In this document: positions 771-30,258 of the stretch, piece by piece | How positions within the stretch are numbered: the stretch's first letter is position 1 | Layout of the letters: the number at the start of each line of letters is the position of its first letter | Assembly (NCBI GenBank): GCA_021811585.1 | Contig: JAJZOG010000017.1 | Coordinates: 1 to 45,779, forward strand | DNA: 45,779 bases | Origin: a bacterium | GTDB taxonomy: Bacteria; Patescibacteriota; Doudnabacteria; UBA920; VMFF01 | Direction of reading: 5' to 3' | Program-made: the position numbers and the translations under genes | The notes under the pieces: generated by a model | Databases searched by the model: none | What the model was told of the DNA's origin: nothing | Seen by the model: the letters and a program-made list of their open reading frames with translations, nothing else

Positions 771-2257
<1,487 letters not shown>

Positions 2258-29773: not shown

Positions 29774-29796
29774 GAAAAAACGCCCGTTTACGGGCC
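29774..29796 (-). terminator. Rho-independent terminator of the ncRNA candidate
   Basis: Minus: gcccgtaaacgggcgTTTTTTC. Confidence 0.8.
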
Positions 29797-30222
29797 GATA
29801 TTAAATATTTGCCCTTACGGGCGTTTAAAGCCGGTTTCGGCGGCTTTTCACCGCCCTTGATGCAGGGCTTAAACTTTTTAAGCCCTAAACCAAAGGCGGT
29901 GGAAAACACTTGCATAGAAACCAACTTAACAACGCTTGCAATTAAGTCGGATTTACAAGCTACAAACCTTGCACTTCCCTTATGGTCAAAGACCTACAAA
30001 CCTTTTTTGTTTTGTTTTTGTTTAAAACTATTTTTGCCTGATTGGCTCAGGAAAGCCTAGTTTTTGTTTTTGTTTTCAAACAGCCCGCGACTTAATCGGG
30101 CTATAACGAGAAGTAACAAGAGAACTGCCCCCAAACCTTTTGGGAGCAAATCCCTGTTTATAGCTTGAAATTTATTGAGGTTTTAAAGAACTAAGTTTGC
30201 TTGCGCTGTGGAAATCTCTTAC
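29775..30222 (-). ncRNA. Candidate ~450-nt structured noncoding RNA of unknown class
   Basis: Promoter, many perfect hairpins, A-rich single-stranded linkers, terminator; no convincing ORF on either strand. Confidence 0.6.
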
Positions 30223-30228
30223 ATAAAC

Positions 30229-30258
30229 ATATTAACACGCAATACGCATAAATGTCAA
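30229..30258 (-). promoter_or_regulatory. Predicted promoter of the ncRNA candidate
   Basis: TTGACA-18-TAATAT on minus. Confidence 0.65.

Follow-up and report, generated by a model that had tools for sequence, protein, structure and literature searches.

What is encoded at 30258..29775, on the minus strand of the 45,779-nt stretch of Candidatus Doudnabacteria DNA analyzed here (the window), and does it belong to any known class of RNA? An earlier note on this locus had proposed a large, structured noncoding RNA of unknown class. The gene consists of a consensus promoter, ~0.4 kb of strongly folding DNA, and a terminator. The promoter (30229..30258) comprises TTGACA (30258..30253), an 18-nt spacer, and TAATAT (30234..30229); the intrinsic terminator (29775..29824) is a nested G+C hairpin followed by T6 (29780..29775), and equivalent structures end the homologues. 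Both elements are as the earlier note had described them. In 40 of 42 homologues, the RNA is preceded by TTGACA, usually with a spacer of 17 to 18 nt and often with an extended −10 element. From sequence alone, we infer that transcription starts near 30222 and that it is strong and constitutive, giving an abundant RNA; no transcript has been seen. The folding energy of the 448-nt transcript is −170 kcal/mol, compared with −112 ± 6.6 kcal/mol for dinucleotide shuffles (z = −8.7), and none of 100 shuffles reached the observed value.

One alternative is that the transcript codes for a protein or has a dual function. In its favor, an ATG often follows an A-rich linker in the homologues (ATGAAGG). 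Against it, an immediate stop (ATGTAGG) is found in several of them, the changes between homologues are compensatory rather than codon-like, and no open reading frame is conserved: in the homologues, the longest possible one runs to a median of 54 codons, and its position, strand, and sequence vary. The claim that there is no convincing open reading frame thus held, and a coding transcript is all but excluded.

We then compared the region with known RNA families. No Rfam (Rfam 15) family matches it at the gathering score, and at E values up to 10 it gives only unrelated, low-scoring matches, with OLE, ROOL, and GOLLD absent. When diverged homologues were searched permissively against Rfam, the matches were again all unrelated and low scoring. 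The literature that we searched, which did not cover most subscription papers and preprints, yielded no paper describing this RNA. Two candidates of similar size, single copy number, and housekeeping-like distribution, RNase P RNA and tmRNA, were rejected. Both are encoded elsewhere in the genome, and none of their features is present here: the true RNase P RNA (RF00010) is at G000:C6:72104-72560, and the region has no match to the model, whereas the true tmRNA (RF00023) is at G000:C7:44022-44412, and ARAGORN finds none in the region. Searches at E values up to 10 also found no SRP RNA (RF00169 or RF01854) in the region, nor was any found in the homologues or genome-wide. The idea that the RNA supplies a missing segment of 16S rRNA was discarded because the 16S gene is complete in the window (771-2255), which rules out 16S only and not 23S. 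As a separate observation, several Doudnabacteria have 16S genes that are 1.6 to 2.0 kb long or matched in pieces (G008:C18:5697-7633, G024:C9:22268-24233, G018:C1, and others), and these lengths and split matches suggest large insertions or introns in 16S. At another locus (L161; G022:C1:747200-752600), no 23S gene was found within 5 kb downstream of 16S, and the rRNA genes there are apparently unlinked.

Evidence for a conserved structure comes from the homologues, which blastn showed to be clear within the family and weak within the order. We aligned 11 of them, with the variable P5 spacer removed, and built a covariance model (R1); a second model (R2) was built from 23 members representing all five families (f1 to f5). 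In the 11-sequence alignment, 91.2% of cells were paired, and pairing dropped to 33 to 53% when partners were slid by 1 to 3 columns. Forty pairs had changed on both sides (22.8 ± 2.5 in shuffled alignments), with 107 double-changed cells (35.7 ± 4.5 shuffled) and a covariation score of 0.407 (0.206 ± 0.011 shuffled). With 23 members from five families, there were 159 double-changed cells against 54.4 ± 6.7 in shuffled alignments, and the covariation score was 0.553 against 0.245 ± 0.014. Compensatory changes beyond chance in homologues, the criterion for a structured noncoding RNA, were therefore present. Of the results that would have refuted the proposal of a large structured RNA of unknown class, the two that sequence data can address, an Rfam match and an absence of covariation, did not appear, and the proposal is supported.

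The consensus begins with P2, followed by P4, which encloses P3, an A-rich linker, P5, a second A-rich linker, and P6; then come P7, the arm P8a-P8b-P8c with or without P9, and the terminator. All features are on the minus strand. The P2 hairpin (UUGCUCCCAAA/UUUGGGGGCAG; 30120..30154) is supported by covariation in two helices of the 11-sequence alignment. P4 is a long-range helix of 12 to 13 bp in f1 and f2, with 8 bp common to all families; its 5′ strand (CUUGUUACUUCUC; 30108..30120) pairs with 29979..29968, and in the 11-sequence alignment it is 97% paired with 6 pairs changed on both sides, with further support in the 23-member alignment. Within P4, the P3 hairpin (30082..30102) is 100% paired, and its loop, AUUAAGUCG (30096..30088), pairs with the loop of P7. 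The first A-rich linker (AAAACAAAAACAAAAAC; 30060..30076) is near-invariant in both the 11-homologue and the 23-member alignments. The P5 hairpin (30027..30059) is variable in sequence and rests on a predicted fold; the P5 region is 62 to 65 nt long in 9 of 12 homologues. The second A-rich linker (30003..30023) is seen in the sequence and in the homologues, and the P6 hairpin (GGUC/GACC; 29984..29994) is supported by covariation in the 11-sequence alignment. Both alignments show the segment at 29968..29986, in which ACCAUAAGG, containing the near-invariant ACCANAAGR, is followed by the P4 3′ strand, GGGAAGUGCAAG.

In the 3′ half, the P7 hairpin (GCUUG/CAAGC; 29934..29960), supported by the 23-member alignment, presents the loop CGACUUAAU (29949..29941), which kisses the P3 loop. 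The P8a 5′ strand (AAGUUGGUUUC; 29917..29927) pairs with GAAACCGGCUU (29838..29828); in P8a, matched pairing was 10.0, compared with 5.8 between families, and none of 5,000 permutations reached the observed value. The 5′ strands of P8b and P8c (29893..29908) covary in both alignments, with 13 of 16 pairs changed on both sides and 98.8% paired in the 11-sequence alignment. The P9 hairpin (AGGGCUUAAA/UUUAAGCCCU; 29864..29886) is an optional tip of this arm, seen in the 11-sequence alignment and missing from two homologues (L011 and L014). The 3′ strands of P8c, P8b, and P8a occupy 29828..29858 and are supported by covariation and by the permutation test.

The kissing contact joins the 5′ and 3′ halves of the RNA. 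Its two strands compensate between families: the pair is AUUAAGUCG/CGACUUAAU in this genome, UCCAAUC/GAUUGGA in f2, UCUAACC/GGUUAGA in f3, UCCAACC/GGUUGGA in f4, and CCAGC/GCUGG in f5, and none of 2,000 permutations reached the observed pairing. In a few members, the kissing helix is just 4 to 6 bp. A descriptor consisting of P3, the A-rich linker, and the kissing P7 found the combination in 39 of 42 homologues. The permutation tests keep composition, and relatedness by phylogeny is uncorrected; even so, a single inherited change would not readily explain compensations that arise between families.

An initial fold with P1 and a different P7 and P10 was replaced by the kissing P7 and P8a after comparison with f3 to f5. 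P1 itself would pair CAAGCUAUAAAC (30167..30156) with GUUUGUAGCUUG (29967..29956), both on the minus strand, and its 3′ strand overlaps P7. It pairs well in f1 and f2 and is not conserved in f3; an alternative state confined to f1 and f2 is possible. The fold proposed in the earlier note was also only partly right. All of its named hairpins can be drawn and both of its A-rich linkers are present, so it holds as a description of the sequence, but two of the hairpins compete with conserved helices. The 9-bp pairing ccgacttaa...ttaagttgg is special to this genome, and across families its strands form the P3-P7 kissing helix and P8a; aaagccg...cggcttt is likewise replaced by P8a. The suggestion of mutually exclusive 5′ hairpins was not supported by the homologues, in which P2, and not gggatttgctccc, is the conserved form.

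How widely is the RNA distributed? R1 matches 44 of 49 Doudnabacteria genomes, in all five families, and 34 of the 35 genomes of good quality. One full-length copy per genome is the rule. Where a genome gives a second, short match, this comes from the palindromic P8/P9 hairpin on the opposite strand; one genome (G001) matched through this hairpin alone, since a contig end truncates its copy. When R2 was run over 380 genomes sampled across the phylum, it found only the same order plus three weak matches outside it, which lie in or beside coding genes and were rejected as false positives. When 84,980 named species were scanned with a pattern, 27 contigs were recovered, labeled Candidatus Doudnabacteria or, for some metagenome-assembled genomes, only Patescibacteria or bacterium, and a scan of 2.9 million viral contigs with the pattern gave no match.

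These data bear on the possibility that we are dealing with an ornate RNA like ROOL or GOLLD, mobile or derived from a phage. The similarities are real: OLE, ROOL, and GOLLD are also large bacterial noncoding RNAs with extensive structure, including kissing loops and covarying helices, and what they do biochemically is unclear (PMC12286853); the RNA described here falls in a similar range of size and folding density. However, there is no sequence or covariance-model similarity to any of the three, and the secondary structure is different. Genes for GOLLD lie in prophages and phages (PMC12286853), whereas this RNA is a fixed chromosomal gene, with one copy at the same chromosomal site in nearly all genomes. 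ROOL is likewise phage-linked. Together with the lack of any viral-contig match and of any Rfam match to ROOL, GOLLD, or OLE, this all but excludes such an origin.

The surroundings of the gene raise another alternative, an unusually long cis-acting leader or attenuator of a traR/dksA-lspA operon. In the window, a traR/dksA-type zinc-finger gene (PF01258; 29356..29679, minus strand) lies downstream of the RNA and outside it, followed by lspA, encoding lipoprotein signal peptidase (PF01252; 28932..29354, minus strand); the upstream neighbor is an exonuclease-helicase fusion gene (PF00929 plus PF13307; 30369..32681, minus strand). An exonuclease-helicase gene is also the upstream neighbor in f1, part of f2, and some of f4, and recA takes this place in f3. 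Downstream, traR/dksA-lspA is often followed by yifB/comM, and by a crude motif test traR is present in at least 25 of 40 loci and lspA in at least 29 of 40. The presence of traR and lspA after the RNA in most loci is what favors a leader. Against it, the RNA is ended by a conserved terminator, and traR has a separate −10 element (TATAAT, ~50 nt upstream in the window), which favors independent transcription of the RNA. Moreover, other Patescibacteria have traR without the RNA, a look-alike in another genome (G068) precedes lgt instead of traR, and the covariation extends across the whole 0.4 kb rather than being confined to a small switch. We consider a cis-acting leader unlikely.

The leader contains a further element. 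At 30181..30192 on the minus strand, AGTTCTTTAAAA is an exact match to GYTCTTTAANA, the gamma-proteobacterial boxA consensus (PMC5725501); this is the sole match in the window, and since 0.46 would be expected, it is not significant on its own. An exact match is present in 12 of 42 homologous leaders, compared with 0.37% of random 176-nt background windows, and a looser form is present in 31 of 42, compared with 2.0 ± 1.3 for shuffled sequences. The element is weak or variant in f3 to f5. By the sequence criterion for a boxA-dependent, rrn-type unit, a promoter followed by GYTCTTTAANA, this RNA qualifies. The boxA of rRNA operons recruits NusB/S10 and renders transcription processive (PMC10250234). 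By analogy, the boxA-like site here would recruit NusB/S10 and so maintain processive elongation by RNA polymerase through a heavily folded RNA that is not translated, and this may also assist folding of that RNA, as in rRNA leaders; there are no data on binding or antitermination. As in rRNA leaders, the site comes soon after a strong promoter and ahead of a long, untranslated, structured RNA, but this RNA is not rRNA, and the rRNA leaders in these genomes carry a different, loosely boxA-like site. A boxA common to the RNA and the rRNA leaders of the same genomes was not upheld, as the similarity is only loose. In the 16S leaders themselves (L131-L146), the DNA after the rRNA promoters carries a conserved element, GGAGACATTAAAAACC or GGAGATTAAAAAAGGCATAAA, that could be a local boxA variant.

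A referee might ask whether the RNA is a derived universal RNA, such as SRP or 6S RNA, that Rfam fails to recognize in Patescibacteria. Both are housekeeping RNAs that went undetected by Rfam models in the 10 to 15 Doudnabacteria genomes tested for each; SRP RNA was not found in the other Patescibacteria tested either, and the present RNA is near-universal and single copy. For SRP RNA, RF00169 was found in 0 of 15 Doudnabacteria and in 0 of 20 genomes of a second set (18 other Patescibacteria and two Doudnabacteria), and RF01854 was found in 0 of 19 genomes, with control genomes positive. SRP RNA in the Patescibacteria tested is thus either strongly diverged or missing. However, it is equally undetected where this RNA was not found, including two genomes (G053 and G071) in which our scans gave no candidate, so the SRP gap alone does not identify the RNA. 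For 6S RNA (RF00013), there was no match in the region at E values up to 10 and none in the Doudnabacteria genomes tested. The structures also disagree: 6S RNA is a long hairpin with a central bubble, whereas the covarying structure here is multibranched, with neither SRP domain IV nor a 6S-like long hairpin. With no model match, even in the permissive search, and no hallmark structures, this explanation is very unlikely.

Beyond Doudnabacteria, the same layout recurs in a few other patescibacterial genomes, in long noncoding DNA that precedes traR or lgt. The look-alike in G068 combines a P4 (UCCCCUACUAUUC/GAACGGUAGGGGA) with a P3 hairpin, an A-rich linker, and a P7 hairpin; the P7 loop, UAUCGG, is complementary to CCGAUA in the P3 loop. 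It is detected by a strict descriptor for which 4 Mb of random sequence yielded 4 false positives, and we regard its architecture as convincing. In G079 (L162) and G058 (L176), a common noncoding stretch of ~0.6 kb upstream of traR is 68% identical and has no Rfam match. Of its 110 predicted pairs, 14 are doubly and 14 singly compensated, and none is broken. The order of P3, A-rich segment, P7, and long arm resembles that of the Doudnabacteria RNA; the kissing helix is only ~5 bp, and there is no descriptor match. We regard these two stretches as likely look-alikes. Upstream of traR in G069 (L171) and G063 (L168), a long hairpin (CCAATCACAAG.TTCCCCCT.TTTGTGATTGG) follows a strong promoter in long noncoding DNA without an Rfam match. 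The shared hairpin is P2-like, and membership of these two genomes can only be called possible. With its filters switched off, R2 gave only noise at the traR loci of other Patescibacteria; since these include a locus that shows the architecture (L178), R2 does not reach that far. Nothing credible emerged from descriptor scans of two complete genomes, G071 and G053; the descriptor used has a sensitivity of 31 of 42 within Doudnabacteria and an unknown one elsewhere. The class is thus established for Doudnabacteria and merely suggested for the wider phylum.

We conclude that this is very likely a real, so far undescribed structured RNA. The promoter and terminator, the covarying helices, the kissing P3-P7 contact, the conserved A-rich strands, ACCANAAGR beside P4, and the fixed chromosomal place are shown by the sequences. 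It is likely, as an inference, that it is a large (~0.4-kb) RNA of a new class, housekeeping-like and acting in trans, and probably the core of a ribonucleoprotein. The gene is single copy and nearly universal in Candidatus Doudnabacteria and would be independently transcribed, and the RNA would act in trans as the core of a housekeeping ribonucleoprotein, either as its scaffold or as a ribozyme. Action in trans is inferred from the separate promoter and terminator, the near-universality, and the different downstream gene in G068, and not from experiment. The A-rich strands and ACCANAAGR would be the likely protein-binding or active sites; no partner or reaction has been identified. This main reading therefore stands on sequence alone, without any observed transcript, partner, or phenotype. 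A bolder reading, which we would not yet favor but cannot set aside, is that this is an ancient housekeeping ribonucleoprotein RNA of Patescibacteria, possibly catalytic and transcribed like rRNA, that is essential in Doudnabacteria and has diverged survivors in other orders.

Large conserved RNAs are rare, and those that have been solved have tended to bring to light basic machinery or unexpected RNA architecture. The models and fold described here make this RNA directly testable in existing metatranscriptomes and through structural work on synthetic RNA. Its lack of any Rfam match shows how incompletely the RNAs of candidate phyla have been charted so far. For Doudnabacteria themselves, a single-copy RNA of 0.4 kb retained in nearly all members, in genomes of just ~0.5 to 1.5 Mb, is unlikely to be dispensable; judging from its conservation, the RNA very likely performs an important, still unknown job.
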